NCBI GenBank assembly: GCA_902798835.1
Contig: CADBYN010000005.1
Span: forward strand, 1-49,905
Direction: 5' to 3'
Length of the DNA stretch: 49,905 bases
DNA from: Candidatus Avelusimicrobium bubulum
GTDB taxonomy: Bacteria > Elusimicrobiota > Elusimicrobia > Elusimicrobiales > Elusimicrobiaceae
Made by a program: the position numbers and the translations under genes. The notes beneath the pieces are model-generated. The model was not told the origin of the DNA, did no database searches, and worked only from the letters and a program-made list of their open reading frames with translations. Positions 10,145 through 45,372 of the stretch are shown one piece after another; position 1 is the stretch's first letter; each line of letters begins with the position of its first letter.

Positions 10145-10173
10145 AGACTCCTCCTTATAAAATATATACCTCC

Positions 10174-10179
10174 ATTATA
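10174..10179 (-). promoter_or_regulatory. -10 element for the transporter-malQ unit
   Basis: TATAAT on the minus strand lies 29 bases upstream of the transporter ATG. A TTGATA at 10200-10205 gives a long 20-base spacer, so the -35 assignment is weak. Confidence 0.45.
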
Positions 10180-10291
10180 ACAAGAAAAAGACAGTTGTGT
10201 ATCAAAAAAAATGATTAGAAAGTTTTCCGGCTTTTTCCCCAATTTAATTTTGATGAGTTATCTATAATTCTCACACGCTGCGCCTAAAAAG

Positions 10292-10300
10292 TGCTAAAAT
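10292..10300 (+). promoter_or_regulatory. Extended -10 promoter for the PIN/TRAM-ispDF-cysS unit
   Basis: TGCTAAAAT matches an extended -10. No good -35 is visible at 16-18 bases. The predicted leader carries a short hairpin (TAGGGCC TT GGCCCTA, 10315-10330) before the RBS GGGAGG at 10346-10351. Confidence 0.5.
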
Positions 10301-10359
10301 AGTAAGTGCCTTTTTAGGGCCTTGGCCCTACTTATTATATTATACGGGAGGATATGTTT

Positions 10360-11307: not shown

Positions 11308-11309
11308 TC

Positions 11310-12461
11310 ATGAACAAGCCATTTTTCGCGTCGGTTGTAATTGTTGCCGGGGGAACGGGCAGCCGCATGGGCCGCCCCAAGCAACTTTTACCTATCGGCG
11401 CAAAACCGGTGGTAGTACGCAGTATTTTAGCGTTCAAGGCGTGTGCGTGCGTGCAGGAAATTGTAGTAGTAACGCCGAAAGAAAATCGCTCTTTGATTGA
11501 AAAATTTGTCACAGATGTTAGGTTTGCCGATCCCGGAGATACGCGCCTGGCTTCGGTGATAAGCGGCGTTGGGCAAGTAAGTCCGCAAGCTGATGTAATC
11601 GCCGTGCACGACGGAGCGCGTCCGCTGGTGAACCCCACATATATTCAAGATGCTCTTCAAAGTGCGTTTGATAACGGGGCCGCTGTGCTAGCCGTTCCCG
11701 TGAAAGATACGATCAAAGAGGGCGAAAATGGCACAGTAGCGCGCACGTTAGAGCGGGCAAAATTGTGGGCGGCGCAAACACCGCAATGCTACCGGCGTAA
11801 CCTACTTGTAGAGGCACTTGAAAAATTTGGCACGCAGAAAGATGCGACGGATGAATCGCAGTTAGTGGAAAAACTGGGGGTAAAAGTGCAATTAGTTCCG
11901 TCCGATTACACAAACTTTAAAATTACTACCCCGGAAGATTTAATTTTTGCAGAGGCACTTGTGAACGAACATTGCTATTATCGTACAGGTTTTGGGTTTG
12001 ACCTTCACCAATTGGGCCCGCAGCGTAAATTTATTATCGGCGGGGTAGAGATTCCGCACGACAAAGGTTTTATCGGCCATAGCGATGGTGATTTAGTGCT
12101 CCATGCCCTATGCGATGCTATTTTAGGAGCGCTTTGTGCGGGGGAAATCGGCATTTTGTTCCCGCCTTCAGACCCCACCATCAAAGGGATCGATAGTAAA
12201 AAGATTGCCAAGAAAGTGTTGCAAATTGTGCGTGAACATCACGCGCAGATTGTCCATTTAGACGCTACGATTATCACCCAAGAACCTAAAATTAAACCGC
12301 ACTATGAAGCGGTGCGCAATTCACTAGCGGAAATTTTTGAAATACCGGTAGAACAAGTTAGTTTTAAATCTAAAAGCCACGAACATGTGGGCGAAATCGG
12401 CCACGGTCAGGCAGCTATGTGCCAAGCCGTAGCTACTGTAAAAGTAAGGAGTGAATTATGA
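11310..12461 (+). CDS. ispDF: Bifunctional IspD/IspF, MEP isoprenoid pathway
   Basis: This 383-residue fusion carries two MEP-pathway enzymes. The N-terminal half (about 1-222) is the cytidylyltransferase IspD, with AGGTGSRMGRPKQLLPI and VIAVHDGARPLV. The C-terminal half (about 225-383) is the cyclodiphosphate synthase IspF, with metal-binding GFDLH (Asp231, His233) and GHSDGDLVLHALCDAILGA (His257). The usual TTTEKLG loop of IspF reads SKSHEHVG here; the Glu is kept but the threonines are changed. The fused form skips the intervening IspE step, which must be encoded elsewhere. The gene starts 2 bases after the PIN/TRAM gene and overlaps the next gene by 4 bases. Confidence 0.95.
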   Translation: MNKPFFASVVIVAGGTGSRMGRPKQLLPIGAKPVVVRSILAFKACACVQEIVVVTPKENRSLIEKFVTDVRFADPGDTRLASVISGVGQVSPQADVIAVHDGARPLVNPTYIQDALQSAFDNGAAVLAVPVKDTIKEGENGTVARTLERAKLWAAQTPQCYRRNLLVEALEKFGTQKDATDESQLVEKLGVKVQLVPSDYTNFKITTPEDLIFAEALVNEHCYYRTGFGFDLHQLGPQRKFIIGGVEIPHDKGFIGHSDGDLVLHALCDAILGALCAGEIGILFPPSDPTIKGIDSKKIAKKVLQIVREHHAQIVHLDATIITQEPKIKPHYEAVRNSLAEIFEIPVEQVSFKSKSHEHVGEIGHGQAAMCQAVATVKVRSEL

Positions 12462-13024
12462 AAGCACGTTTGTTTTTAGTTTTCTTGGCGGGGATTACGT
12501 TGGCGGGTTGTACCGCCTTGCAAACTCCCTCTAAATGGGACGTTTCCACCGCAACGGATTTTGCACATCCCGATGCTAATCACGCTTATTATGAGTTTAC
12601 CTCTTCCCCGTTAGATAAGCCCTCCGTGCTCGATGAGACAACCCTTTCGGAGCCTTCTTATGACTTAGGGGATGACGAAGATTTTACAGCCGAAAATATC
12701 GAAAGCGCATACGGCACATACGGTGATGTAGTGGTAACGGTAGCTTCGCGCAAATTTAAACTGGGAGACGCGGCCGGCCGCAAAGAAATGGCTGCCTTTC
12801 AAAACGCATTAGATACCGCCTATTCCGTAGCTCTTAAAGAGTTCCATCCTTCCGGTTTTACGTATGCGATGAGTAGTATGGGGGCTATCAATCCGCTTTC
12901 CGATATTGAAGTGGCTTGCAAGTTAAGCGAACGCTCGGCCAATCAAATCGGTCAGGCTACTTGCAATTCTTTTTTCAATACGGTTTCACGGCGCTATTCG
13001 CAACTGATTAAAGGGGCCAAGTAG
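12458..13024 (+). CDS. Predicted lipoprotein of unknown function
   Basis: This 188-residue protein has a signal peptide with a lipobox (FLAGITLAGC), giving a likely lipidated Cys18. The mature part has an acidic low-complexity stretch (DLGDDEDFTAEN) and a C-terminal part with three cysteines (VACKL, ATCNSFF region). I do not recognise a family. The ATG overlaps the ispDF stop by 4 bases, and cysS follows after one base, so it is co-transcribed with housekeeping genes. The coupling is shown by the sequence; no functional link is evident. Confidence 0.7.
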   Translation: MKARLFLVFLAGITLAGCTALQTPSKWDVSTATDFAHPDANHAYYEFTSSPLDKPSVLDETTLSEPSYDLGDDEDFTAENIESAYGTYGDVVVTVASRKFKLGDAAGRKEMAAFQNALDTAYSVALKEFHPSGFTYAMSSMGAINPLSDIEVACKLSERSANQIGQATCNSFFNTVSRRYSQLIKGAK

Positions 13025-32049: not shown

Positions 32050-33117
32050 TTATAGATTATTCTGCAAGATGCTTGTAATGCCTAATTGGTCTCGAAACAA
32101 CATAATAAGTACGACCAAAATTATGAGTCCCGCAAAGCCTATCAATGCGGCAAACCCACGGGAAGGGACATCAGGCAAACGACGTTCAAGTTGTGTTTCA
32201 TCCGCATAGTTTATATATATGCGTGTAGCCGATATGATGTAGAGCGGCCGAAAGATTAACATAATAACAGCCAGAGCAAGTAACATAGGAATACTGGCAA
32301 ATAAGTAAAACATAAATATCGAGGGGAGCTGATAAGCTTTTTGCAGTTCCATAATATACGGGAATAACACGATCAAAGAAGCATACGCGCCTATTCCCAC
32401 AATCCAACAAATTAGCGAATAAGCCGCCCGTAATTCTCCCAACCTAAGTAGGCGTGTTTTCAGCAGGGCTAACGAGTCCTGGCAGGCTTCTTTGACAGTT
32501 CTTCCGTATACCAAGGCAGGGATTATACCTAGTGTGGCTGTTTTCCAGACTTGGTATACAAGTTCTTTGAAAATTTTAACAGAGAGCGGGGTTCGGTCCT
32601 TTTTTTTAGGCAACCGATCCAAAATTCTGTTTACGGTTATCCAGGCATCAACCCAACTAAATACCCATATCGGCCAGGAGCGATCTGCCACCATCCGTAA
32701 ACATTCCGGGATGGTAGATTCCCTCTGCTCGCTATGCAAAGTATAAGAGGCCCCCATGCAGGCTGTTAAAATGCCTATAGGATAGGCCACCAGTCCGACG
32801 CAGAGAAAACTCCAAGCCAAAAAAATCAAATTAAGGAACAGCCCTCCTTTGTCATTGCCGATTTGATCCCAAACTTCTTGCGGAATCCAGCCAAGAAATT
32901 GCACCCAAATATAATAACCTATGGCGATGGCGACCAATTGCAAAAACGAAAAGAAAAGATTCTCTTTTTCGGATAGTACAAATTTGAAAGAGATCCAGCA
33001 CTCTTTAAAAAATCCGCCTAGCGACTCTTTCCCCTTGGGCATGGACAAGTCTCTTGACACATTTTCAATTTCTTGATGAAGGTTTGTAAATTGGTCTCGT
33101 ATGTTGGTTTCGTCCAT
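32050..33117 (-). CDS. Multi-pass membrane protein of unknown function
   Basis: This 355-residue protein has a charged N-terminal cytosolic region of about 45 residues, then about six membrane segments in pairs (about 58-75, 95-125, 195-210, 240-262, 275-300, 325-345). One loop, YGRTVKEACQDSLALLKTRLLRLGELRAAYSLICW, recalls membrane proteins of the DUF6159 type, but I am not certain. An extended -10 (TGCTACAAT, 33162-33154 on the minus strand) and GGAG before the ATG indicate a single-gene unit, ended by the bidirectional terminator. Confidence 0.75.
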   Translation of the reverse strand: MDETNIRDQFTNLHQEIENVSRDLSMPKGKESLGGFFKECWISFKFVLSEKENLFFSFLQLVAIAIGYYIWVQFLGWIPQEVWDQIGNDKGGLFLNLIFLAWSFLCVGLVAYPIGILTACMGASYTLHSEQRESTIPECLRMVADRSWPIWVFSWVDAWITVNRILDRLPKKKDRTPLSVKIFKELVYQVWKTATLGIIPALVYGRTVKEACQDSLALLKTRLLRLGELRAAYSLICWIVGIGAYASLIVLFPYIMELQKAYQLPSIFMFYLFASIPMLLALAVIMLIFRPLYIISATRIYINYADETQLERRLPDVPSRGFAALIGFAGLIILVVLIMLFRDQLGITSILQNNL

Positions 33118-33210: not shown

Positions 33211-33239
33211 TTGACAAATAAATAATTTACTAGTAAACT
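33211..33239 (+). promoter_or_regulatory. Promoter of the MarR-lipid operon, predicted leaderless
   Basis: A consensus TTGACA (33211-33216), a 17-base spacer and TAAACT (33234-33239). The ATG of the MarR gene at 33246 is seven bases after the last base of the -10, and no ribosome site is present. Confidence 0.8.
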
Positions 33240-33242
33240 ATT
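33221..33242. promoter_or_regulatory. Palindromic operator, probably for the MarR-family protein
   Basis: The core TTTACTAGTAAA (33226-33237) is a perfect 12-bp palindrome. One unpaired base on each side separates it from AATA / TATT, making a 22-bp two-fold site. It covers the spacer and the -10 of the promoter, so binding by a MarR dimer would block transcription. Binding by this protein is inferred. Confidence 0.7.
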
Positions 33243-33245
33243 TAT

Positions 33246-33734
33246 ATGGAAATAAATAACTTCGATTTGCGCCCCTACGGTGTCAATCCGGCCAAAGGCC
33301 GCGACTATGAAAGCATTATGTACGTGTTTGCCCTGATATACAATAGGTTGCAAACCCGGGTGGATGCTTATTTTGCCGCGTGCGGACTATCGGCGGTGCA
33401 ATTTAATTTGCTCATGCTGGCTGCTTATCAAAACAAAGGCCAGGGAATCAGCCAAGTGCAAGCCGCTACGCACTTAATTGCTTCGGCTAGCAATATTACT
33501 AAACTGGTGGAGAAATCCGTCCAAGAGAAATTGCTTACCCGCCAAACCAATCCCAACAGCCGCCGGGAGAATATCATTTGTATTACCAAAAAGGGCCAGG
33601 CGCTTATTGATAAAGTATGGCCGGGGTATGACCGGCTCATGCGCAGCCTGACGGGGAAAATTCCTGCTAAAAACCGCCCGCAGATGGAACAGATTTTAAA
33701 AAATTGGTTTGTCGCACTACAAGAGGAGAAATAA
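33246..33734 (+). CDS. MarR-family transcriptional regulator
   Basis: This 162-residue winged-helix regulator has the MarR fold: an N-terminal dimer helix, a helix-turn-helix at about 70-105 (SQVQAATHLIASASNITKLVEKSVQEKLL), and a wing with NPNSRRENIICITKKGQAL. It is the first gene of a five-gene lipid operon, and a 22-bp palindrome overlaps its own promoter, so autorepression is likely. MarR proteins commonly respond to small phenolic, fatty-acyl or lipid ligands; the ligand here is unknown. The ATG has no ribosome site. Confidence 0.9.
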   Translation: MEINNFDLRPYGVNPAKGRDYESIMYVFALIYNRLQTRVDAYFAACGLSAVQFNLLMLAAYQNKGQGISQVQAATHLIASASNITKLVEKSVQEKLLTRQTNPNSRRENIICITKKGQALIDKVWPGYDRLMRSLTGKIPAKNRPQMEQILKNWFVALQEEK

Positions 33735-33735
33735 T

Positions 33736-36700
33736 ATGTTGTCTTTAATCAAAACTTTTTTCAATCGTTCATTTTTTGCACTATTTTGTACGCAATATTT
33801 AGGTGCATTTAACGATAATTTTTTCCGTACCGCCATGGCTACGTTTATCACGTACAAGGTGACCACCATTTCAACCGGTCATAAATCGGTGATTGTATCA
33901 CTGGCGGTGGCGTTGTTTATGTTGCCGTTTTTCTTATTCTCGGCGTTAGCGGGGGAATTGGCGGATAAATTTCGCAAAGATATTCTTATTAAAGCCACTA
34001 AAGTATTGGAAGTAATTATTGTGCTTTTGGCCGCGGTGGGTTTTTTAACTACCAACGTACCGATGCTACTGGGGGTATTGTTTTTGATGGGGACGCAATC
34101 TTCGTTTTTCGGCCCGGTCAAATACAGTATTTTGCCCGATATTTTGAAGGAAAATCAGCTCATTGCCGGCAACGGTATCATTGAGGCGGGCACGTATGCA
34201 GCGATTTTGCAGGGCACTATTTTTGGAGGGATTATCATTGCCGCCAACGAATTTTTGCTCCCGGGTATTATGTTGGCCGTGGCGATAGTAGGGGTAGGGA
34301 GCAGCTTGTTAATTCCGGCGCAAAAACCGGCCAATGCGGCGTTAAAAGTGGATACAAATTTCCTGCGTAGTACGTGGAAAAACATGAAGTTTGCCAAGCA
34401 AGATCATGATATTTTCTTGTGTATTTTGGGGATCTCTTGGTTTTGGTTGTTAGGTACAGCGCTCGTGGCGCAAATGCCCTCGTTAGCACATGATATTTTA
34501 AACGGTACGCCGGGATTGTTCACATTCTTACTCACGCTATTTTCTTGCGGAATTGGGGTAGGCTCGTTACTATGTCAATTTTTGGTTAAGGGTGAAATTA
34601 CCAGCAAATATGTGCCGATCAGCGCCCTGGTGATGACATTATTCTTGGCTGATTTGGCGTGTGCTACCTCGGGGTATGTAACCTCTGCTACGGCGGTAGA
34701 TTACAAAGCGTTTTTACTCACGTTTGCGGGCAAGCGTATCACGCTGGATTTGCTTGGGTTTGCCGTGTGCGGCGGACTTTATATTGTGCCGCTTAACGCG
34801 ATGCTCCAAGCGTTAGCCGGCGAAGATGTACGCTCGCGCGTGATTGCCACTAACAACATCATTAACGCACTTTTCATGGTGATGGGCAGTGGGTTTTGCG
34901 CGCTTTTATTGGCAATGCATTTCACGATTCCGACGGTATTTAGCGTTATTGCCTTTGCCAACGCCTTGGCGGCCGTATACATTTGCGGATTGTTGCCGCA
35001 TCACATTGTCCGCATGATTTTAACGCGCGTGTTAAATTTTGTTTATGGCGTAAAAGTAAACGGACTGGAACATTGGAAAAATCTTAAAGGTAATGTGCTC
35101 ATTATCGCCAACCATACTTCGTTTTTGGATGCGGCGTTATTGTGGGTATATTTGCCGGATAATTTATATTTTGCCATTGATACCTATGTCAGCCAAAAGT
35201 GGTGGGTACGTCCGTTTTTGCACTTGGTAAAATATTTCCCGATTGACCCCACTAACCCGATGGCTGTAAAATCGATTATTGAGGAAGTGAAAAGCGGTAA
35301 GCGGGTGGTCATCTTCCCCGAAGGGCGCATTACAACTACGGGCGGGCTGATGAAGATTTACCCCGGCCCCGCGCTGATTGCCGATAAGAGCGATGCGCAG
35401 CTATTGCCGGTTTATTTGGAAGGGAGCCAGTACTCGGTATTTTCACGTTTTGGCAGTCAGTTTAAAACGCGTCCGCATAGCAAAATCACCATTACTATCC
35501 AAGCCCCGACCCAGTTAAACATAGATGAATCTATTCACGGGAAAGCACGTCGTTTAGCGGCGTCACGCGCCGTATATGATTTGATGGTAAAGATGAAATA
35601 CGAAGCGGGCGATATTGAAGAGACGCTCTTTGATTCGCTTTTGGACACGATGGATTTAGTGGGCCGCAATAAACGGGCCATTAACGATGTGACGCGTCAT
35701 CCGCTTACGTACGGACAATTTGTTACGGCCGCTTTTGTATTGGGTAAACAAATTGCCAAAGAGCAAACATCGGGCGAAATGACAGGGTTGTTGATGCCCA
35801 ATATGACGGCCAGTGCCGTAGCGTTTTTTGGGATGCGTGCGTTTAACATTACGCCGTGTATGCTCAATTTTTCCACCGGTGTAAAAAACATGTTGGCCTG
35901 TTGCAAAGCCGCTAAAATTTCTACGGTGGTAACCTCCAAACTTTTCTTGCGGCAAGGGGGACTGCAAGAAACGGCCCACGCACTCAAACAGGCGGGCCTC
36001 AAATTGATTTACTTGGAAGATCTTAAAAAGCAAATCACGCTTTGGGATAAATTAGTGGGGTGGGCGGCCTCGTATTTTCCGCGCCGCTACTACAAATTAA
36101 TTCGCGGAAATGTAACTTCCAAAGATCCGGCTGTAGTGCTTTTTACGTCCGGCAGCGAGGGCACTCCCAAAGGGGTGGTGTTAACGCACGAAAATATCCA
36201 GGCCAACCGCTTGCAACTACTTAGTGTACTTGATTTGGGTGTCAAAGACCGCATGTTCAACGCCATGCCGATTTTCCACTCGTTTGGCTTAACGGGCGGG
36301 ATGCTGCTGCCGCTACTGAGCGGAGTACCGGTATTTTTCTATCCGTCCCCGTTGCATTACCGCGTAGTGCCGGAGATGATTTATAACCGCAATGCCACGA
36401 TTGTTTTTGGTACGGATACGTTTTTTAACGGATATGCCAAAATGGCGCACCCGTATGATTTTTACTCGGTGCGTTTGGCGGTAGTAGGGGCGGAAAAATT
36501 AAAGGAAGAGACTATCCGCAAATACTATGATCAATTCGGCCTGCGCATTATGGAAGGATATGGCGCTACGGAAACTTCCCCGGTGATGGCGGTGGATACG
36601 CCCATGTATTTCAAGCGCGGCAGTGTGGGGCGTTTCTTGCCGGGCATTGAATACAAATTGGAGCAAATCCCCGGCGTAGAGGAAGGGGGAAAATTATGGG

Positions 36701-37143
36701 TGAAAGGCGCCAACATTATGGCGGGTTACTTGCGCGAAAGTAACCCCGGCGTCATAGAGCCGCCGCAAGACGGCTGGTATGATACCGGCGACATTGTGCG
36801 CGTGGATGAGGATGGATTCGTATTTATTTTGGGCCGCGCCAAACGCTTTGCCAAAATTGCGGGCGAGATGATTTCTCTTACAGCCGTGGAAATGGAAATC
36901 AACGCGTTGTGGCCCGGCAAAATGAATGCAGTGGTAAACATCCCGGACGAGAAAAAGGGCGAACAACTTGTACTGTTTACCACGCAGCCGGATGCAGACC
37001 GCTCGGCGCTGATAACTAATTTTAAAGAAAAGGGACTGAGTGAATTGGCCGTGCCCAAAACCATTCGCGTAGTGGACGAAATCCCGCTGATGGGTACGGG
37101 TAAAGTGGATTACGTCAAACTCAAAGAGATGGCACTATCCTAA
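33736..37143 (+). CDS. aas: LplT-PlsC-acyl-ACP synthetase fusion (Aas-like lysophospholipid recycling enzyme)
   Basis: This 1135-residue three-domain protein combines the parts of lysophospholipid uptake and repair. Residues 1-420 form an MFS carrier like LplT (QYLGAFNDNFFRTAMATFI at the start). Residues 435-620 form a PlsC acyltransferase with the NHTSFLDA motif (His460) and FPEGRITTTG. Residues 640-1135 form an AMP-binding acyl-ACP synthetase with FTSGSEGTPKGV (about 803-814), EGYGATETSPVM and WYDTGDIVRVDEDGF. In E. coli LplT and Aas are separate. The predicted cycle is flipping of lysophospholipid inward, activation of a fatty acid, and re-acylation. The ATG at 33736 has GAGGAG upstream; an earlier in-frame start at 33709 lies within the MarR gene. 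Confidence 0.92.
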   Translation: MLSLIKTFFNRSFFALFCTQYLGAFNDNFFRTAMATFITYKVTTISTGHKSVIVSLAVALFMLPFFLFSALAGELADKFRKDILIKATKVLEVIIVLLAAVGFLTTNVPMLLGVLFLMGTQSSFFGPVKYSILPDILKENQLIAGNGIIEAGTYAAILQGTIFGGIIIAANEFLLPGIMLAVAIVGVGSSLLIPAQKPANAALKVDTNFLRSTWKNMKFAKQDHDIFLCILGISWFWLLGTALVAQMPSLAHDILNGTPGLFTFLLTLFSCGIGVGSLLCQFLVKGEITSKYVPISALVMTLFLADLACATSGYVTSATAVDYKAFLLTFAGKRITLDLLGFAVCGGLYIVPLNAMLQALAGEDVRSRVIATNNIINALFMVMGSGFCALLLAMHFTIPTVFSVIAFANALAAVYICGLLPHHIVRMILTRVLNFVYGVKVNGLEHWKNLKGNVLIIANHTSFLDAALLWVYLPDNLYFAIDTYVSQKWWVRPFLHLVKYFPIDPTNPMAVKSIIEEVKSGKRVVIFPEGRITTTGGLMKIYPGPALIADKSDAQLLPVYLEGSQYSVFSRFGSQFKTRPHSKITITIQAPTQLNIDESIHGKARRLAASRAVYDLMVKMKYEAGDIEETLFDSLLDTMDLVGRNKRAINDVTRHPLTYGQFVTAAFVLGKQIAKEQTSGEMTGLLMPNMTASAVAFFGMRAFNITPCMLNFSTGVKNMLACCKAAKISTVVTSKLFLRQGGLQETAHALKQAGLKLIYLEDLKKQITLWDKLVGWAASYFPRRYYKLIRGNVTSKDPAVVLFTSGSEGTPKGVVLTHENIQANRLQLLSVLDLGVKDRMFNAMPIFHSFGLTGGMLLPLLSGVPVFFYPSPLHYRVVPEMIYNRNATIVFGTDTFFNGYAKMAHPYDFYSVRLAVVGAEKLKEETIRKYYDQFGLRIMEGYGATETSPVMAVDTPMYFKRGSVGRFLPGIEYKLEQIPGVEEGGKLWVKGANIMAGYLRESNPGVIEPPQDGWYDTGDIVRVDEDGFVFILGRAKRFAKIAGEMISLTAVEMEINALWPGKMNAVVNIPDEKKGEQLVLFTTQPDADRSALITNFKEKGLSELAVPKTIRVVDEIPLMGTGKVDYVKLKEMALS

Positions 37144-38303
37144 TGAACTTACTAAAAAAATATTGGTACGCCGGATTTATTACGCTCATTACGCAGGTTT
37201 ATTTCCGTAAAATTTCTCTATACGGAAAAGAAAATATTCCCGCGTGCGGTCCGGTGCTTTTTATAGGGCTTCATAAAAACGGTGCGGTGGACGGGTTTGT
37301 ATATCATCGTGCACTATCGCCGGTAACATTTATGCTGGCTGCGCAGTTGCGGCGCAATCTTATTGTGCGTTTATTCTTTGACGGCATAGAAGTCACACGC
37401 GATAAAGATAAGGGTATCCATAGCAACATTGCCGCCCTGAAAAAATGTATTTCATTTTTGGAAAATAACGGACGCTTGTTTGTGTTCCCCGAAGGAACCA
37501 GCACGCTGGGGCCGGCACATTTACCGTTTAAAGAAGGCGCCGCCATTTTGGCTTCGCGCTTTGATTTTTCAAAGGGAGAGAAGCTCACAGTCGTTCCCTG
37601 TGCTGTTTTTTACGACGATCCCACGCGCTTGGGCGGAAAAGTAGAAGTGGTGGCGGGCAAACCGCTTGTGTTTACGCAGCCGATAGATCGCCGCGAAATC
37701 CACCGGGCCTTTACGCAAGCACTCGAGAAAATCAGCCCGGATTATACATCTGCCGAGCAACAACGTATTACCCAACAGGCCGCAGCGCTGCTTTGCTTAT
37801 ATGGGGATACGCCGTATCATACGTTCTTGCGCAAAATTCACGAAGATAACGCGTGCTATCAAGCCGCGGCAGATACGTTGGCCCAGTTTTCCACAAAACA
37901 GATGTGGTATTACAAAGGCGTGGCGGTTTTTCCGCGCAGCGTACTCAACAGTTTGTGGACATGGCTGATTACCGCCCCGTTTGTTGGTTATGCGTTTTTG
38001 TGGAATTTGTTACCCATCCTGGTCGGTGGGTATGCTTCCAAAAAATTTGCCGATGAGAGCAACGTAATTTCCCTGTGGAAGATAATTCCATCGTTTACGT
38101 TGTGGCTGCTGCTGACGGTAGTTGAACTCATCGTGCTGCCGCGGTTGACGGTTTTATCGTTGGCAGTATCTCTCTTGGGATTTATGATTTACGGCGCGTG
38201 GAAAAAGCATACAGTTAGTTTACACAACTATTTGCGTGCGCCTAAAGAGATGAAAAAATTTAATCAGTTGCGTCAGGAACTTTATGAAAAAATTATTCAC
38301 TAA
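37143..38303 (+). CDS. PlsC-like lysophospholipid acyltransferase with membrane tail
   Basis: This 386-residue protein has an acyltransferase domain at about 25-210 and two to three hydrophobic segments at about 280-375. The acyl-acceptor block is LHKNGAVDGFVYH, with five residues between His and Asp where PlsC enzymes usually have four. The phosphate-binding block FVFPEGTSTLGPAHLPFKEGAAILA is standard. It is probably a glycerolipid or glycolipid acyltransferase. The ATG shares one base with the previous stop (TAATG), and the next gene overlaps by 20 bases, so translation is coupled. Confidence 0.85.
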   Translation: MNLLKKYWYAGFITLITQVYFRKISLYGKENIPACGPVLFIGLHKNGAVDGFVYHRALSPVTFMLAAQLRRNLIVRLFFDGIEVTRDKDKGIHSNIAALKKCISFLENNGRLFVFPEGTSTLGPAHLPFKEGAAILASRFDFSKGEKLTVVPCAVFYDDPTRLGGKVEVVAGKPLVFTQPIDRREIHRAFTQALEKISPDYTSAEQQRITQQAAALLCLYGDTPYHTFLRKIHEDNACYQAAADTLAQFSTKQMWYYKGVAVFPRSVLNSLWTWLITAPFVGYAFLWNLLPILVGGYASKKFADESNVISLWKIIPSFTLWLLLTVVELIVLPRLTVLSLAVSLLGFMIYGAWKKHTVSLHNYLRAPKEMKKFNQLRQELYEKIIH

Positions 38304-39123
38304 TCTTTTACCGCACGAGATTTTATTTAATCTGTTTCTGCTCATTACTGCCGGGCGGTTGTGGTGGATGACGGGGTTTACGGGCAGCAGTATCGTATAC
38401 ACGCTTCTGCCGATAATGTTGATTATTTACGCGTATGTGTTCCGCGCAAAACTGAAATGGCGGTTGGTGATTTATTTTGTCGTGATGAATTTGCTCTTTG
38501 CCAGTTTGGGGTATATCTCGCCGATGATTAATCCGGGCGGAAAAGTGGATGCGATGTTGCAGCATTGGGATGAGGTACTTATCGGCGGAAATTTATCGGT
38601 GTGGATTGCCCCGTATATGAGTTACTGGATGACGGAGATTTTAGCGGTCTGTTATATGCTTTTTATGATCCAACTGCCCGTGGCGTGTGTGTATTATTTA
38701 TTTCAGGCCCCTAAAACCGCCAAAGGTTTTTACGTGGGGATGTTTAGTTTGTATGCGGTTGGATATATGGGCTATTTACTCGTTCCGGCGGTAGGGCCTT
38801 ATTTGGCCATGGCAGATACGTTCGGCGGGCCGATACAGGCCGGGCCGGTGATGGATTTTTTGCACTATATGTATCCCAAAGGAACTAATTATACTGACGT
38901 ATTTCCCAGTTTGCATTGTGCGGTATCCACGTTTATTTTGCTCTTTGATTGCAAGCATCATAAAATACGTTTTTGGGGATATTTGCTGCCCTGTGTGGGG
39001 TTGTGGATTTCCACGGTGTATTTGCGTTATCACTATACGGTAGATTGCATTGCCGGGTTTATTTTGGCAATCAGCATGTTTTACTTTGCGGAATTTTACA
39101 TGAAGCATTTGGAGGAGAAATAG
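38284..39123 (+). CDS. PAP2-family membrane phosphatase
   Basis: This 279-residue protein has about six membrane segments and the PAP2 motifs FPSLHCAVS (PSxH) and YLRYHYTVDCIAG (with the catalytic HxxxD). The first KxxxxxxRP motif is not obvious, as in PAP2 proteins of the inositol phosphorylceramide synthase type. It could remove phosphate from phosphatidate, or act as a head-group transferase. It overlaps the acyltransferase gene by 20 bases and precedes the dikinase by one base, so it belongs to the lipid operon. Confidence 0.88.
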   Translation: MKKLFTNLLPHEILFNLFLLITAGRLWWMTGFTGSSIVYTLLPIMLIIYAYVFRAKLKWRLVIYFVVMNLLFASLGYISPMINPGGKVDAMLQHWDEVLIGGNLSVWIAPYMSYWMTEILAVCYMLFMIQLPVACVYYLFQAPKTAKGFYVGMFSLYAVGYMGYLLVPAVGPYLAMADTFGGPIQAGPVMDFLHYMYPKGTNYTDVFPSLHCAVSTFILLFDCKHHKIRFWGYLLPCVGLWISTVYLRYHYTVDCIAGFILAISMFYFAEFYMKHLEEK

Positions 39124-39124
39124 G

Positions 39125-41632
39125 ATGAAAGATATTTTATTATTTACTGACGAACAAGCTCAAAATATTTCCTTTAGCGGGGGAAAGGGTGCCAACCTAT
39201 CCAAAATGACGCGTGGCGGTTTCCCCGTGCCGCAAGGGTTTATTGTAACGGCGCAGGCGTATACGCGTTTTATTGAACAGGCCGATTTTTTAGATAAAGA
39301 AATCGCCCGGTTTGATTATGCACACCCGCAACATTTAATCAAACAAACCCAAGTGCTTAAAAAGAAATTAACTGCGCTTGATTTGCCAAACTCCCTGCGC
39401 AAAGAAATCCGCCAAGCGCTGCGCAAATTCAAAAACGTGAAAGCATTTTCAGTGCGTTCTTCTTCCACGATGGAAGATTTATCCGGCGCAGCGTTTGCCG
39501 GGCAGCATGACACATTTTTAAATTGCGTGGGCGAAAAAGACATTGCTGATAAAATCAAACAATGCTTTCTTTCCCTCTGGCATGACCGCGCGGTGGCCTA
39601 TCGCCACAAACAGGGCTTTGATCAACACACTACCATGGCTGTCGTAGTGCAACAAATGGTCCACGCGGATACGGCCGGGGTGGGGTTTTCCATTAACCCG
39701 GTGAGCGGCAACGTGCAGGAAATTTTAATCAACGCTAACTACGGGCTGGGCGAGTCGGTTGTAAGCGGGGAAAGCACCGTGGACCAATTTATTGTCAGCA
39801 AGAAAGACGGAAAAATTGTGCAACGTGCCGTAGCGCAAAAAGAGGAGAAAATTATCTTGCTTGCCCGCGGTACAAAAACCGTTCGTTTGTCCGGTAAAGA
39901 AGCGCTAAAACCCTGCTTGAGCGATGCGCAAATCAAGCAAGTAGCGCACCTCAACAAGCAAGTAGAAAAGCATTACGGTTTTCCGCAAGATATTGAGTGG
40001 GCTTTTCAAGGACGCAAATTATTTTTGCTGCAAGCCCGGCCCATTACCACGCTGCCCGCGCGTTGGACGCGTGACGAATCGGCCGAGCGTTACCCCACGG
40101 TCATTACGCCTTTTACGTGGGATTTTGTAGAGAAAGCGTTTCATATTTCGCTCAATCATTCCTTTCGTTTAATGGGCCTTCCGCCCTTTGAAGGCAAGTG
40201 GTTTGCCATGTTTGACAATTACATCTACGGCAACCAAAACGCCGTGTGGTTGTACATGGGGCAAACCCCGGTACAGATTACCAGCCTGGATGACTTGCGC
40301 GGCAAGATCGGCTTTTTGAAAGACCGCTTTGCTTACGTGCAAGAACTGCCGGTAAAGTGGACGCGCAATTTAGATATTTATTTGCTAGGCGTGGGCGCGC
40401 TGATGGCGGAAGATTTGTCTAAAAAAGATATCCGCGGCGTGTGGGAGTATATTTTGCGCGTGGCCGAGTTGGGCACGAATTACTTCCGCCCCAACATTGC
40501 CATTTCCATCACGCAAGCACTTTTATACAAGATGTTTCTGTATTTCATTACGTTGGCAGTCGGCGAAAAAGAAGCCAAACGTTTGTTCCCGTTGTTAATT
40601 GCCACGACGGAAACAAAAACCAATTTGGTCAACAGCGAACTCTATGGCCTGGCGCAACTGGCCAAAGAAGATAGCGCACTAAAGGGCTTGCTCACCAAAA
40701 CGCCGTCTAAAGAAATCATCCGCAAGCAACAACTCAAAAAATTTCCGGCGTTTGAAAAAGCGTTTGATAACTTCTTAAAAATGCACGGTCACCGCGAAAC
40801 GGATTTTGATTACTATATTCCTACGTGGGTGGAAGCACCGTGGGTGGTGCTGGATAATTTGAAGCTGATTATCACGACGCCGCAAACCAAAACGCCGCTC
40901 GAAAAAGAGTACGAAGTCAAAATCGCCAACCAAGAAGCGCAAGCGCAGTTGTTTGCCAAACTGCCGCAAGATTTGCATTTTTTCTACTATGAAATGTTGC
41001 GTTTGGTGCGCGCATATACGTCGCTAGATGACATTGAGCACTACCAAACTACGCGCCTGACGTTGCCGATTCGCAAAGGAACTTTAGCCATGGGGCAACT
41101 GCTTAAGAAAGCAAATATCGTCAAAGATCCGTACGATGTGTTTTTCTGCCACATGGATAGTTTGCGGCAATTTGTGGAGGGAAAACTCTCCAAAGAGAAA
41201 CTGGCCCGCGTCATTGCTACCGAGAAAGCCGCGTACCAAAAAAATAAAGCGCGCACGCCCGCGTGGGATTTACAAGCTGCGCAAGACACAAAGAAAAAAG
41301 CAGATGCCTCTACCTTGTGCGGACTGGCCGGAAGTCCGGGCGTAGCCGAAGGAAACGTGTTTGTGGTGCGCTCCACGCAGGATTTTGCCAAATTCCCTAA
41401 AAATGCGGTGCTGGTGGCCCGTACGACCAACCCGGCTTGGACGCCACTTTTCTACAACGCCTGTGCGCTGATTACCGAGAGCGGCGGTCCCTTATCGCAC
41501 GGGGCCGTTACCGCGCGTGAGATGAAATTACCGGCGGTGATGTCAGTGCGCGACGTGCTCAAAACACTTCGCAACGGGCAGAAAGTGCGCGTGAACGGAA
41601 GTAAAGGGATCGTAGAAATTTTGAAAAAGTAA
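39125..41632 (+). CDS. PEP-synthase/rifampin-phosphotransferase-like dikinase
   Basis: This 835-residue protein has an N-terminal PPDK-type ATP-grasp domain (about 1-310: FSGGKGANLSKMTRGGFPVPQGF, SVRSSSTMEDLSGAAFAGQHDT, QDIEWAFQGRKLFLLQARPI). A long middle domain (about 320-735) follows, then a C-terminal swivelling domain with GGPLSHGAVTARE, in which His792 is the phospho-carrier. The length and the lack of a TIM-barrel PEP/pyruvate domain fit rifampin-phosphotransferase-like enzymes better than PEP synthase. Those enzymes use ATP to phosphorylate a hydroxyl, releasing AMP and phosphate. The middle domain decides the substrate and I cannot name it. In this operon a lipid or acylated molecule is a reasonable guess. 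Confidence 0.82.
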   Translation: MKDILLFTDEQAQNISFSGGKGANLSKMTRGGFPVPQGFIVTAQAYTRFIEQADFLDKEIARFDYAHPQHLIKQTQVLKKKLTALDLPNSLRKEIRQALRKFKNVKAFSVRSSSTMEDLSGAAFAGQHDTFLNCVGEKDIADKIKQCFLSLWHDRAVAYRHKQGFDQHTTMAVVVQQMVHADTAGVGFSINPVSGNVQEILINANYGLGESVVSGESTVDQFIVSKKDGKIVQRAVAQKEEKIILLARGTKTVRLSGKEALKPCLSDAQIKQVAHLNKQVEKHYGFPQDIEWAFQGRKLFLLQARPITTLPARWTRDESAERYPTVITPFTWDFVEKAFHISLNHSFRLMGLPPFEGKWFAMFDNYIYGNQNAVWLYMGQTPVQITSLDDLRGKIGFLKDRFAYVQELPVKWTRNLDIYLLGVGALMAEDLSKKDIRGVWEYILRVAELGTNYFRPNIAISITQALLYKMFLYFITLAVGEKEAKRLFPLLIATTETKTNLVNSELYGLAQLAKEDSALKGLLTKTPSKEIIRKQQLKKFPAFEKAFDNFLKMHGHRETDFDYYIPTWVEAPWVVLDNLKLIITTPQTKTPLEKEYEVKIANQEAQAQLFAKLPQDLHFFYYEMLRLVRAYTSLDDIEHYQTTRLTLPIRKGTLAMGQLLKKANIVKDPYDVFFCHMDSLRQFVEGKLSKEKLARVIATEKAAYQKNKARTPAWDLQAAQDTKKKADASTLCGLAGSPGVAEGNVFVVRSTQDFAKFPKNAVLVARTTNPAWTPLFYNACALITESGGPLSHGAVTAREMKLPAVMSVRDVLKTLRNGQKVRVNGSKGIVEILKK

Positions 41633-41872: not shown

Positions 41873-41959
41873 CGGAAGGGGAGGGATTCGAACCCTCGAT
41901 AGAGTTGCCCCTATATCAGTTTTCAAGACTGACGCCTTAAACCACTCGGCCACCCTTCC
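41873..41959 (-). tRNA. tRNA-Ser (TGA)
   Basis: An 87-base tRNA with a long variable arm on the minus strand: acceptor GGAAGGG / CCCTTCC, D-arm GGCCGAGTGGTTTAAGGC, anticodon loop with TGA, a class II variable arm, and T-arm GAGGG TTCGAAT CCCTC. The discriminator is G and CCA is not encoded. Confidence 0.95.
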
Positions 41960-42019: not shown

Positions 42020-43237
42020 TTAGAAGCCTTTTTCCTCGGCGTGTTGCTCTAAGTTGATGGGAATTTTCAGGCGCACATCAAACCCGGCTAGCCGGGAAAG
42101 TTCCGGATCTTTAAACTGTAAGACGGCTTGTTTAAACATTATGTGTTTCGTCAACGCTTCTAACGGTTCTTCATGGGTAGCCGCTACCATTTGGCCGATA
42201 AGCCCTCTGCCGTTTAATTTAAAGTATTTATCCGGGTACAACGTAAGCACAAAGGGGCGTTCGTTGTGCAAAGCAGTAGAGAGAGAATAGGGGAAATAAT
42301 ACGAGCTATGCGCCGCGCCCGTATACACTACAAACAAAGCATGGGGGTATTTTTTCCGGTAAGCGGTTAACGTGTCTGTCCACGATTCATTACGTATTCG
42401 CATTCCTTCTAAATGGGCCCATTGTGAAATTACTTTTACGTTCCCTTGGGGGTCAATACCTTCCACGTCGCAGAAGTCATAAAACGATACTTCTTCTTCT
42501 AAGCCGATGACAGGGATGCCTTTACGTGCCGCTTGCTGCCAGATAGGGGCATAAACCGGTAAGGCGAGCGAAGAGGGGCGTACATCTTCTGACCACTGGA
42601 AATCCTTAGGCAAAAATTCTGTGAATAAGATAATTTCCCGGTTGGGATTTTGTTCGTGCAACGAGATCAGCAACATTTCCACGCTTTGGTGTATTTCTTT
42701 AAATCCGTGCATCTCGCCCACAAACAGCGTAGTTGTTCGTGCCGGGATTTGCTCGGTTAGCCACGGGATGAAATTTTCGGCTTGGAGATCGGCCGTTTGG
42801 CGGGCGGCTTTTTGCATTTGCGGCAAGTGGTTTTTTAGTTGCTTAATCCACTCTAGGACGTGTTTGCTTTCTTTGAGATAGGCGCGGTTGCTTTTGGCGG
42901 CCATATAATTGGCGGTTTGTCGACGGGTAGTTAAGAAGGGCTTATCTGCATATACGCGGTGCGTAGGCATATCTTTGGCGCGGCGCACGCGGCGTATTGG
43001 CTCGCCTAAAAAATCGATATGCTGGGGATGCTGTTTTTGCAATTCGCGCGCCGTTTCGAAAGAAGTGCGCAAGCGTTTGTCGAGGATGCGGGAAAATCTT
43101 TCTGTTTGGGCGAGTTTGCCAAACGCTCTGCCTACTCTTGTGGATTTCAATTTGTTAGACAAACGTTTACCCGCTTGCAGTTGTGTAGGCGCGTTCACTA
43201 AACAAATTAACAGAGTCAAGCATACAATTCTTTTCAT
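42020..43237 (-). CDS. Secreted ChaN/TIKI-superfamily protein, copy 2
   Basis: This 405-residue protein has a signal peptide (MKRIVCLTLLICLVNAPTQLQA). After a basic, probably helical region (about 25-155) comes a domain of the ChaN/TraB/TIKI/erythromycin-esterase clan at about 160-340. It has LFVGEMHGFKEIH with the clan's GExH, then ILFTEFLPKDF and VVYTGAAHSSYYF with a second conserved His. Members include haem-binding and metallo-hydrolase proteins; the activity here is unknown. It shares this layout and many motifs with its neighbour at 43249-44589, 11 bases upstream in the same direction, so they are an ancient tandem pair in one operon. Confidence 0.75.
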   Translation of the reverse strand: MKRIVCLTLLICLVNAPTQLQAGKRLSNKLKSTRVGRAFGKLAQTERFSRILDKRLRTSFETARELQKQHPQHIDFLGEPIRRVRRAKDMPTHRVYADKPFLTTRRQTANYMAAKSNRAYLKESKHVLEWIKQLKNHLPQMQKAARQTADLQAENFIPWLTEQIPARTTTLFVGEMHGFKEIHQSVEMLLISLHEQNPNREIILFTEFLPKDFQWSEDVRPSSLALPVYAPIWQQAARKGIPVIGLEEEVSFYDFCDVEGIDPQGNVKVISQWAHLEGMRIRNESWTDTLTAYRKKYPHALFVVYTGAAHSSYYFPYSLSTALHNERPFVLTLYPDKYFKLNGRGLIGQMVAATHEEPLEALTKHIMFKQAVLQFKDPELSRLAGFDVRLKIPINLEQHAEEKGF

Positions 43238-43248
43238 TTTTACCTCGT

Positions 43249-44589
43249 TTACTTTAAGAGAAAACCTGGGTTTACGTGATTGGAATCTAAGTTAAATTGT
43301 TGAAATGGCAACATATCCTGCTCTTTGAGTTCCGGGGGTTTAGGAGTTGCGGGTAATTTAACGCGCATATCAAAGCCGGAAAGTTCTATCAAATCGGGCG
43401 ACTTCCATTTCAGCACCGGTTGCGGGAAGGAAAGCCGGGGGTTTAATATCTCCAGGTTGTCGGTTTTGTAATCGACCTCGCCGTCAAAGACAAGCTTTTC
43501 TAGCGTTACTTCGAGCATAAAGGTTCCCTTTTTGGGCAGATACTTAGTTAGCGAGTTCGGGAAATTATAATAACTATGTGCGCTGCCGGTATAGATTATA
43601 AACAAGGCGTTGGGATATTTGGCGCGATAGTATTTCAAAACTCTCTGCCAATGTGCGTTGCGCAGACGCATGCCTTCCGGCGCCGCTCCTGCCGGGTAGT
43701 ATCCAACATTTCCCTTTGCATCGGCGATTCCAACGGGGTAAATATTTTGTACGCGCGAAGATTCCAACCCGATGATCGGGATGCGCCGGTGGCGGACTTT
43801 CTCCCACACCGGATCGTAGTAATGTTTGCGAGGAAAATACGACATAAAGTCGATTGCGTTTTGGCCGGATATTTCGGGGTCAAGCAAAAACTCGGTAAAC
43901 AAGAGTATTTGTCTGCCTTTGTTTTTGTTGTACAAAAGTGGCAGCAGTTGACTGACAAACTGCGGGATTTCGTGCTGGTCGTGGATTTCGCCGATGAATA
44001 AATTTTTTGTGTCGGCGGGGATTTGCTGGGCCGTCCAGTTAGCTATCTCTTCCGACGTTTCCAGTTTAATTTCTTTTTCTTTCAGCTCGCGTTCAAGCGC
44101 CTCGGCTTCTTTATAAAAACGCGGGATAGCTTCCATAAATTTCGGCCAGAACTTTTCCATTTCCCGCAGGTGTTCAATAAACAGGCGGTTACTTTCTATT
44201 AAAAAATGCGCCTCGGCTAATTGGGAACCCAGGATAGGATGTTGCAACTCGGGTTTATCCGGGTACATGCGCTTGGCGCGCAACAGCGAAATGCGGGTAA
44301 TTCCTTTGCGGCGTTTGACCGGCCCGGTTAAAAGGGGGCGTGCGCTGGTCCGCTGCTGGGCGGTTAGGGCTTTATTAAATGCCAGTTCAGCCTCTGCGTT
44401 TAATCGGCGCAACTCTCTGTACTTGGAAACCAACCCGGGCTTTTGGGCAGTCCTACGCGAAAATAAGTTAAAGCGGGCAGAGGCCTTGCGCGGACGTTTG
44501 GATGCTTTTTTTAATGAACCAGCGTACGATGGCGTTGCCAATAAGCAGCCGCTAAGCCACAGTAACAGAAAAGTTTTTTTATGGAACAT
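43249..44589 (-). CDS. Secreted ChaN/TIKI-superfamily protein, copy 1
   Basis: This 446-residue protein has a signal peptide (MFHKKTFLLLWLSGCLLATPSYA). A basic helical region of about 190 residues includes an acidic coiled-coil-like stretch (YKEAEALERELKEKEIKLE). The conserved domain follows: LFIGEIHDQHEIPQF (GExH), LLFTEFLLDPEI, PIIGLES and IIYTGSAHSYYNFP. The 56-residue C-terminal tail is Pro/Glu-rich. An open frame extends upstream to 45024, but the signal peptide and a GGAG site support the ATG at 44589. Same family as the next gene, with clear divergence, so not a recent duplication. Confidence 0.75.
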   Translation of the reverse strand: MFHKKTFLLLWLSGCLLATPSYAGSLKKASKRPRKASARFNLFSRRTAQKPGLVSKYRELRRLNAEAELAFNKALTAQQRTSARPLLTGPVKRRKGITRISLLRAKRMYPDKPELQHPILGSQLAEAHFLIESNRLFIEHLREMEKFWPKFMEAIPRFYKEAEALERELKEKEIKLETSEEIANWTAQQIPADTKNLFIGEIHDQHEIPQFVSQLLPLLYNKNKGRQILLFTEFLLDPEISGQNAIDFMSYFPRKHYYDPVWEKVRHRRIPIIGLESSRVQNIYPVGIADAKGNVGYYPAGAAPEGMRLRNAHWQRVLKYYRAKYPNALFIIYTGSAHSYYNFPNSLTKYLPKKGTFMLEVTLEKLVFDGEVDYKTDNLEILNPRLSFPQPVLKWKSPDLIELSGFDMRVKLPATPKPPELKEQDMLPFQQFNLDSNHVNPGFLLK

Positions 44590-44706
44590 AAATTGATTTT
44601 CTCCTATCTTCAACCCCCATAGTAAATAATTTGTCCGGCGTGTCACAAGGGCCAAAAGGCCTAAAAGCAAGCGTCTAAAAGTCCTACGTGTAGAGGGCTC
44701 ATAAAT

Positions 44707-44715
44707 TGCTATAAT
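44707..44715 (+). promoter_or_regulatory. Extended -10 promoter of the radical SAM operon, predicted leaderless
   Basis: TGCTATAAT (-10 at 44710-44715), with the ATG at 44722 seven bases after the last T. Upstream, 44650-44661 holds a GGCC AAAA GGCC hairpin. No Shine-Dalgarno is present. Confidence 0.7.
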
Positions 44716-44721
44716 ACGGGT

Positions 44722-45372
44722 ATGACCAGCACAACGCCTAAAATTGCCTATCGTTTCAATGACGGTGTTTATATCAATTTGACCAACCGTTGCCCCAACT
44801 TGTGTGTGTTTTGCATTAAGACCAAGTGGCAGATGGACTTTCACGGCAATAACCTCAATTTGGCCGGCAACGAGCCCACGGCACAGGAAGTCCTGCGCGC
44901 GTTGGAGGACGAGCTTGTCAAAGCGCCGTTTAAAGAAGTTGTTTTTTGCGGCTATGGCGAGCCGACCATGCGCCTGGATGTGCTGCTCTATGTAGCCCAA
45001 ACGCTTAAAGGTTGGCAGGCACAAGCCAAATTTCCGCCCTTTAAAATTCGTCTCAATACCAACGGGTTAGGAAATCGTATTAATCACAAGCCCATTGTCG
45101 GTGAGTTGCGCCGCGTGGTGGATATCGTCAACGTGAGCGTCAACGCCCAGGACGAAACCACTTGGCGTGCGCTCATGCGCCCGGAGCCCGAGTACCGCGA
45201 CGCTTACCCCGACGTGCTTTTATTCTTACAGCAATGCGTGGAAGCCGGGTTTGAAAAAGTTGTGTTGAGTTGCGTAGATAACACCGGCGCGGATGTCAAT
45301 GCGCTTGAAGCGTTGGCTAAAAAATACGGGGCCACGTTCTATGTGCGGAGTTTTTTAGATGAAAAAGAGTAA
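44722..45372 (+). CDS. TatD-associated radical SAM protein
   Basis: This 216-residue protein has the radical SAM cluster motif CPNLCVFC (CxxxCxxC), followed by FCGYGEPTMRLD (the glycine-rich SAM-binding segment) and IRLNTNGLGN. The compact size and VYINLTNRCPNLCVFCIKTK fit the family often found beside TatD nucleases. TatD itself is not in view. The substrate is unknown. The start has no ribosome site but lies at a leaderless promoter. The next gene overlaps by 14 bases. Confidence 0.88.
   Translation: MTSTTPKIAYRFNDGVYINLTNRCPNLCVFCIKTKWQMDFHGNNLNLAGNEPTAQEVLRALEDELVKAPFKEVVFCGYGEPTMRLDVLLYVAQTLKGWQAQAKFPPFKIRLNTNGLGNRINHKPIVGELRRVVDIVNVSVNAQDETTWRALMRPEPEYRDAYPDVLLFLQQCVEAGFEKVVLSCVDNTGADVNALEALAKKYGATFYVRSFLDEKE

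Follow-up and report, generated by a model that had tools for sequence, protein, structure and literature searches.

The stretch of DNA analysed here (the window; 49,905 nt of contig CADBYN010000005.1, Candidatus Avelusimicrobium bubulum, from a 1.35 Mb assembly designated G000) carries a set of three adjacent genes, encoding a PlsC-type acyltransferase, an Aur1-like membrane protein of the PAP2 family (hereafter PAP2) and a dikinase. Our tentative reading, in which we place slightly less than even confidence, is that these genes travel horizontally as a cassette whose products make or remodel a membrane lipid bearing phosphate, and that the cassette has been joined here behind a MarR-linked operon for lysophospholipid import and re-acylation. 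Judged from sequence, the set is conserved and under purifying selection, PAP2 is of the Aur1 type, and the dikinase has an ATP site, a swivel histidine and an invariant second site of its own. The three genes are the last of five open reading frames (ORFs) on the + strand at 33246-41632, which overlap by 1 or 20 bases or are separated by a single base (Table 1). A first-pass annotation had described these as five tightly coupled genes; the ORF coordinates and family matches bear this out, and the five look like one unit.

PAP2 and dikinase genes adjoin in 17 loci (the window, L054, L055 (= L125), L124, L056, L057, L058, L059, L060, L062, L063, L073, L074, L075, L076, L077 and L089), with the acyltransferase gene upstream in 15. 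The full set occurs in the same order in four loci of the same genus and in Alphaproteobacteria, Desulfobulbaceae, Neisseriaceae, Cardiobacteriaceae, a gammaproteobacterium and Campylobacterota, while two Helicobacter loci have the PAP2-dikinase pair alone, between trpS and glnA. Named carriers include Helicobacter cinaedi, H. magdeburgensis and a Campylobacter metagenome-assembled genome (MAG). Outside the genus the dikinase identity is 43-59%, yet the gene order is kept. That the dikinase gene might prove unlinked to lipid genes in relatives, a possibility raised by the first-pass annotation, is thus contradicted by the 17 loci. The same annotation had grouped the first four genes as a lipid pathway with the dikinase as the odd member; this grouping is not supported, as the acyltransferase and PAP2 go with the dikinase, mostly without Aas, and among the loci seen Aas stands beside them only in this genus and in L056. 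MarR-Aas is a separate unit. The dikinase frame of L056 (an Alphaproteobacteria MAG; 10001-12520) has one internal TAG and is otherwise open; the stop could reflect decay, an error or recoding.

The pairing was followed from both ends. In a set of 61 genomes (our own and 60 relatives), strong dikinase matches occur in G000, G024 and G028, and a C-terminal fragment in G029; PAP2 matches occur in exactly the three genomes with an intact dikinase, and the same three give acyltransferase matches above 600 bits (next best, 43 bits). A dikinase-led scan of an 84,980-species collection, which finds close relatives only, gave 11 loci, nine of which have PAP2 directly upstream. In L064 (Helicobacter labetoulli; 9901-11228) both PAP2 and dikinase are present as broken pieces, and in L061 (G029; 9969-11203) the C-terminal half of the dikinase stands alone, without PAP2. 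In a PAP2-led search with a ten-member profile (A1), 8 of 397 Campylobacterota match, and a dikinase adjoins in all eight (seven intact; L064, from G068, broken). In the class of G065, 5 of 369 genomes match, of which G065 and G611 carry the cassette and three have weak Aur1-like proteins; in the class of G061, the 4 matches among 337 are the cassette carrier G061, two weak ones, and G1016, the one clear exception to PAP2-dikinase pairing. The weak Aur1-like proteins (G565, G682, G782, G1024 and G1117; 42-52 bits) have no dikinase beside the place examined; they were left out of the counts, and G565 and G1024 each have a second place outside the examination.

Gene trees (16 dikinase, 16 PAP2 and 14 acyltransferase rows; L124 left out) show the same main groups, which cut across the taxonomy of the hosts. 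In them the MAGs of Neisseriaceae and Cardiobacteriaceae group with the Campylobacter MAG (L058), G094 and, where present, Helicobacter, and the trees place four other Campylobacterota genomes in a separate clade. Some forks are weakly supported, the long branches of L089 and L057 are unsure, and the placement of L063 and Helicobacter varies; mis-binning of single MAG contigs may also account for some cross-taxon placements. In many loci the G+C content of the acyltransferase and PAP2 genes is below that of the surroundings. The flanks differ: upstream of the set, L074 has a gene that looks by eye like secY, and L075 and L076 have a neighbour of equal size; the upstream gene of L077 is of the Ppx/GppA type, and L089 is flanked by a 2-oxoadipate-dioxygenase-like gene and nnrS. 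The cassette thus seems to move horizontally as a unit.

All three genes are evidently under purifying selection. Ratios of nonsynonymous to synonymous substitution rates (dN/dS) within the genus are 0.016-0.036 for the dikinase, 0.030-0.082 for PAP2 and 0.061-0.092 for the acyltransferase, with L124 (G028) represented by its dikinase and its PAP2, which were taken from L006; no more than the low level can be read from these values, because dS exceeds 1.3 throughout, near or past saturation, and the ratio was computable in 13 of 15 pairs. Between the window and L054, differences in the dikinase gene number 99, 54 and 406 at the first, second and third codon positions.

A phage or plasmid origin of the set, and a role as a defence system, were considered and rejected. 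One scan of viral contigs with A3 gave 45 stretches that matched a pattern, none of which was confirmed. A tblastn search gave matches in 304 plasmid records, all below 60% identity; the best among the matches listed had ∼31% over the full length, so these are general superfamily members. PADLOC has no family for any of the three proteins as a defence system, and PHROGs offers only a general “kinase” for the dikinase. Record titles place the carriers of L056, L058, L060 and L063 in deer stomach compartments.

PAP2 belongs to family PAP2_3 (57.6 bits, cut-off 27). All ten rows of its profile share FPSLH and HYxxD without change, so that the His and Asp motifs of PAP2 proteins are present. Against solved chains, the profile finds Aur1 first (E 4.3e-6 and 5.5e-6), followed by a Bacillus PAP2 phosphatase (E 3.1e-4). 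The predicted structure (mean predicted local distance difference test score (pLDDT) 79.1, predicted template modelling score (pTM) 0.84) gives the same answer: two Aur1 structures are the only Foldseek matches at ≤0.001, and with VIA-align they reach Z 17.7 (root-mean-square deviation (RMSD) 4.6 Å, 250 residues) and 17.5 (4.1 Å, 255 residues), as compared with 15.1 for LpxE (2.8 Å, 160 residues) and at most 13.7 for all others. Aur1 aligns from PAP2 residue 5 or 13, whereas the membrane phosphatases (ranks 3-11) align only from residues 88-99. The Aur1-type fold thus extends over the whole length of the protein, although a shared fold is no proof of function. The protein was initially labelled a PAP2 phosphatase, but it lies nearer to the lipid phosphotransferase Aur1 than to phosphatases by profile, Foldseek and VIA-align alike, and transferase activity therefore appears likelier than plain phosphatase activity. 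The acyltransferase scores 51.7 bits against PF01553, above cut-off; HxNGAxDG and FPEGTS are invariant in its alignment (A2), and hydropathy indicates hydrophobic segments at its C-terminus.

The dikinase consists of an ATP-grasp domain (residues ∼1-310), a middle domain (∼311-725) and a swivel domain (∼726-835), with Pfam matches to PPDK_N at 19-314 and PEP-utilizers at 757-828 of 835 aa. The ATP-site residues K21, R111, T130, E291, Q303 and R305 and the swivel histidine H792 are identical in 16 of 16 rows. Its domain order, ATP-site residues and swivel histidine place it in the superfamily of rifampin phosphotransferase (Rph)-type small-molecule dikinases. The middle domain has about 80 invariant residues, largely polar and many of them charged, among which are the segments RDESAER, HGHRE and LDDxEHYxTTR; D635, D636, E638, H639, Y640 and R644 are again identical in all 16 rows. 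When two Rph-type proteins and one PigC-like protein are added (alignment A4), DDxEHY aligns with REYPKY of Rph, so that R666, E667 and K670 of Rph (RPH-Lm, block 9) stand opposite D635, D636 and H639. In Rph, Arg666 and Glu667 are essential to the second step and Lys670 is part of the phosphate network, according to PMC4844700. The HQQ stretch of the two Rph-type rows, which holds the phosphate-contacting Gln of block 1, falls opposite a dikinase gap, where the alignment is uncertain. Among solved relatives, Listeria Rph is the best match to the full chain, and the ATP-grasp part is matched best by PEP synthase or HpeI; the whole-length superposition is loose (RMSD 14-15 Å), because the domains are placed differently. 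VIA-align rows for the ATP-grasp and swivel parts include many unrelated ones and were set aside. With an invariant DDxEHY in place of the Arg-Glu/Lys site, we file the dikinase neither as Rph nor as phosphoenolpyruvate (PEP) synthase, and our best reading is that it represents a new subfamily. The earlier description “rifampin-phosphotransferase-like” holds for the domain architecture only, and not for the second-site residues or the equivalog score.

In the mechanism that we propose, ATP would charge His792, with release of AMP and inorganic phosphate, and the swivel domain would then bring the phosphate to the middle domain. There the invariant charged residues would hold a polar alcohol, which would be phosphorylated. 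The Aur1-like protein would move the phospho-headgroup onto or off a membrane lipid alcohol, and the acyltransferase would acylate the product or repair a lyso-lipid. Several points weigh against this proposal. No substrate or product of the cassette is known, and the charged invariants could be there for catalysis and not to select a substrate. The substrates of PigC-like relatives are hydrophobic, which equally fits a lipid as the substrate of the dikinase. The AlphaFold model of the dikinase (mean pLDDT 76.2, pTM 0.58; residues 308-327 and 356-382 under 50) is weak at the conserved second-site segments, and the confidence there is too low for a substrate pocket to be drawn from it. The acyltransferase is absent from the Helicobacter pair and therefore not essential there, and in G1016 a clear relative of PAP2 (285.7 bits) occurs with a dikinase of this family nowhere in the genome. 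Finally, Rph handles a hydrophobic substrate with mainly hydrophobic drug contacts (PMC4844700), which would fit a lipid too.

The last of these points also favors a second explanation, in which the Aur1-like protein frees diacylglycerol (DAG) or another lipid alcohol as it transfers a headgroup, the dikinase re-phosphorylates it, and the acyltransferase completes the product. We regard this as unlikely, though deserving of serious attention, since the partners of the dikinase act on lipids and since the genus is without the DAG kinase DgkA, so that it could profit from a route that starts at DAG and uses ATP. DgkA (PF01219) was sought in 48 chosen genomes, with G068 (broken cassette) left out: it is absent in all 14 genus members (three intact carriers, G029 with the fragment, and 10 without the cassette) and in G1016, and 16 of 20 cassette-free Campylobacterota possess it. 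All 13 tested carriers outside the genus have it, however, and the 10 cassette-free genus members also live without it. The distribution is thus not complementary and the dikinase is no simple DAG-kinase replacement; in addition, the invariant middle-domain residues are largely polar. The first-pass idea that the dikinase phosphorylates a lipid in opposition to a phosphatase is accordingly weakened for DAG.

The remaining explanations fare worse. An ATP-driven ligase of the PigC/RedH type, in which the phosphate merely activates one substrate for condensation with a second, is improbable: the PigC and RedH models match both ends of the dikinase (353.7 and 344.3 bits, below cut-offs) and the PigC-like row likewise lacks the Arg-Glu of Rph, but that row also lacks DDxEHY, and the set has no pyrrole or other condensation-type partner gene. 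Slightly less probable still is that the dikinase does something of its own, outside the work of the lipid genes, and is just carried along with them. The absence of a known dikinase substrate, the varied surroundings between taxa and the solitary PAP2 relative of G1016 would be in keeping with this, as opposed to the gene order kept across divergent dikinases, the short overlaps, and the joint decay of PAP2 and dikinase in L064. Inactivation of an antibiotic or xenobiotic by a rifampin phosphotransferase is very improbable even with the shared domain order and the best whole-length fold match, as the dikinase scores 386.3 bits against 999 for NF041857 and 283.2 against 1700 for NF000283, Arg666, Glu667 and Lys670 are not kept, and the lipid partners are constant. 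A PEP synthase or pyruvate phosphate dikinase of central metabolism is scarcely credible, for although automatic models so named match the dikinase ends, the histidine domain is C-terminal, Pfam finds no PEP C-terminal domain, TIGR01418 gives 361.5 against 739.75 bits, and a separate gene of the genome (a 946-aa frame) matches PPDK_N. From the missing residues in the one case and the missing domain in the other, both rifampin phosphorylation and PEP making are unlikely activities.

Two genes stand in front of the cassette. The identification of the second gene as an LplT-PlsC-Aas fusion is secure, with 1533.7 bits against NF005291 (cut-off 1349), which makes it a full member of the LplT-Aas acyl-ACP--phospholipid O-acyltransferase family. 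Its frame is open from TTG 33709 (33709-37143), but translation more likely begins at ATG 33736, one base past the MarR stop, in agreement with relatives whose frames have 1134-1139 aa. Among the 61 genomes, the full fusion is present in 15 of 37 from the genus, as compared with three for the cassette genes. The cassette is one of several cargos behind the MarR-LplT/Aas pair in the genus; cargo families were run on representative loci and other loci placed by BLAST. In L097 and L098 (L097:2-6803; L098:8720-13789), 8 bases past Aas, the cargo runs from a FabH-like synthase to an OleD-like reductase, a metallo-hydrolase and an F390-synthetase-related protein (TIGR02304, 489.8 against 251.9 bits), with one extra gene inserted in L098 and a 924-aa protein, part of which resembles amino-acid adenylation domains, in L097. 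In L099, L100 and L103 (L099:4612-7718; L100:10052-13185; L103:4478-7595), from genus members without the cassette, a radical S-adenosylmethionine (SAM) protein and Lgt-like and isoprenylcysteine-methyltransferase-like proteins follow 10-12 bases past Aas. The radical SAM protein is related to TrsS (240.9 against 490 bits) and to the tetraether synthase Tes (177.1 against 450 bits; PDB 7tol, E 9.2e-43), and this cargo could be a module for membrane-spanning lipids or lipid coupling. An alpha/beta hydrolase follows at 9 bases in L102 and 359 bases in L101, and the RsmF-like gene 144 bases past Aas in L104 is probably unrelated. Genome G027 has two MarR-Aas operons (L100 and L101), each with a different cargo. 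As other genes follow Aas in genus members without the cassette, MarR-Aas looks like a separate, older pair to which the cassette is one of several additions. Three of the four same-genus cassette loci keep MarR (the window, L054 and L124), and L055 is without MarR beside the cassette. We count the presence of lipid-type enzymes among the other cargos as support for the lipid role of the cassette.

Control by MarR, as first proposed, is plausible from the promoter-like site and palindrome before the MarR gene, although the MarR-like protein itself reaches only 19.9 bits against MarR_2 (PF12802; cut-off 27). The promoter scan alone proves nothing, because it found 15 sites against 13.0 expected, but TTGACA stands at the same position in 10 of 11 MarR-bearing loci. 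The palindrome of the window (13 of 14 pairs) reaches up to the MarR start codon and is matched by none of 200 composition shuffles. Over the same 11 loci (L124 and L126, also MarR-bearing, were outside this test), it is strong in six and weak in five: 0-3 of 200 shuffles match it in the window, L098, L099, L100, L101 and L106, 17-19 in L097 and L103, and 68-134 in L054, L102 and L104. In four loci without a MarR match, 22-129 shuffles equal the palindrome score. A wider regulon search found no second site within 3 mismatches in our own genome. In 41 genomes the pattern matches 10 times (seven genomes), and these counts alone mean little because the backwards control gives 6 matches in five genomes; their position carries more weight, as the sites lie directly before the MarR gene in G000, G015, G019, G022 and G023 and before Aas in G008, and a further match, in G045, is from another genus.

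Table 1. Features of the five-gene locus, in window coordinates.
Feature	Position	Strand	Basis
Promoter-like site TTGACA-17-TAAACT	33211..33239	+	Consensus scan; second hexamer ends 6 bases before the MarR ATG
Imperfect palindrome, 13/14 pairs; likely MarR operator overlapping the promoter	33218..33245	.	Shuffle test
MarR-like regulator, 162 aa	33246..33734	+	PF12802 below cut-off; weak NCBIfam matches to MarR-type regulators
LplT-PlsC-Aas fusion	33736..37143	+	NF005291 above cut-off; Pfam MFS_1, Acyltransferase, AMP-binding
PlsC-type acyltransferase, first gene of the travelling cassette	37143..38303	+	PF01553; motifs; hydropathy
Aur1-like PAP2_3 membrane protein	38284..39123	+	PF14378; FPSLH and HYxxD
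Dikinase, 835 aa	39125..41632	+	PF01326 and PF00391 above cut-off
Dikinase codons 635-640 (DDxEHY), in the place of Rph REYPKY	41027..41044	+	Alignment A4
Codon of dikinase swivel histidine H792	41498..41500	+	Aligned with the Rph histidine; identical in 16/16 rows

The surroundings of the locus include a tRNA-Ser(TGA) at 41873-41959 (-), 240 bases past the dikinase; a tRNA-Ser(TGA) follows the operon at some distance in L054 and L100 too. The ORF at 42020-43237 (-) matches the ChaN/Tiki haem-binding family below cut-off (25.2 against 27.7 bits), is resembled by eye by that at 43249-45024 (-), and has relatives close to Aas in L100 and L105. A 355-aa ORF with many hydrophobic stretches (32050-33117, -) diverges from the MarR gene; for it Pfam and NCBIfam give no match up to E 0.001.

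A bolder version of our reading, which we regard as doubtful though worth stating, is that the dikinase, of a new subfamily, phosphorylates a headgroup or lipid alcohol, which the Aur1-like phosphotransferase and the acyltransferase build into a lipid not yet described in bacteria, and that the cassette spreads between phyla and has here been plugged into a MarR-linked operon with exchangeable cargo. Rph-type dikinases are numerous, and their range of substrates is described as still incompletely explored (PMC4844700, PMC12167813). One that keeps a fixed lipid partner across phyla offers a defined starting point in the search for a new class of substrates and, given Aur1-like chemistry, perhaps for a novel phospholipid of bacteria. 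The cassette would point to a membrane lipid being built or remodelled in a way not yet described, and the set is small enough for whole expression and lipidomics, so that the question is directly testable. As the carriers include the named Helicobacter species and the Campylobacter MAG, a product would also bear on the envelope of animal-associated bacteria.

A literature search covering titles and the starts of abstracts (with most subscription journals and all bioRxiv preprints outside its coverage) found no description of the three-gene set among the matches listed, but each component can be set beside a known system. Rph (PDB 5hv1 and 5fbs; PMC4844700) has the same order of ATP-grasp, middle and C-terminal histidine domains, and its ATP-site residues and histidine are kept; it differs in having REYPKY rather than DDxEHY and in its middle domain, and the fixed lipid partner genes are particular to the present set. 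The phenol-type dikinases HpeHI, CreHI and PpsAB share small-molecule dikinase chemistry with a swivel histidine, and HpeI (PDB 9goj) matches the ATP-grasp part (Z 28.4, RMSD 3.7 Å, 299 aligned), but these systems are two-component and act on aromatics (PMC12167813), whereas the dikinase here is one chain with lipid partners. The PigC and RedH prodigiosin ligases resemble it at both ends and in the lost Arg-Glu, and differ in second-site motif and in the condensation partner, which the set lacks. LplT-Aas lysophospholipid remodelling, for which fused forms are mentioned in PMC11416262, is represented by the full family member before the cassette, outside the part that travels. Aur1, the inositol phosphorylceramide synthase (PDB 9ivc and 9vj4), is the closest counterpart of PAP2 by both profile and fold, along nearly its full length; at ∼18% identity, the likeness is one of sequence and fold, and need not extend to the use of ceramide or phosphatidylinositol.

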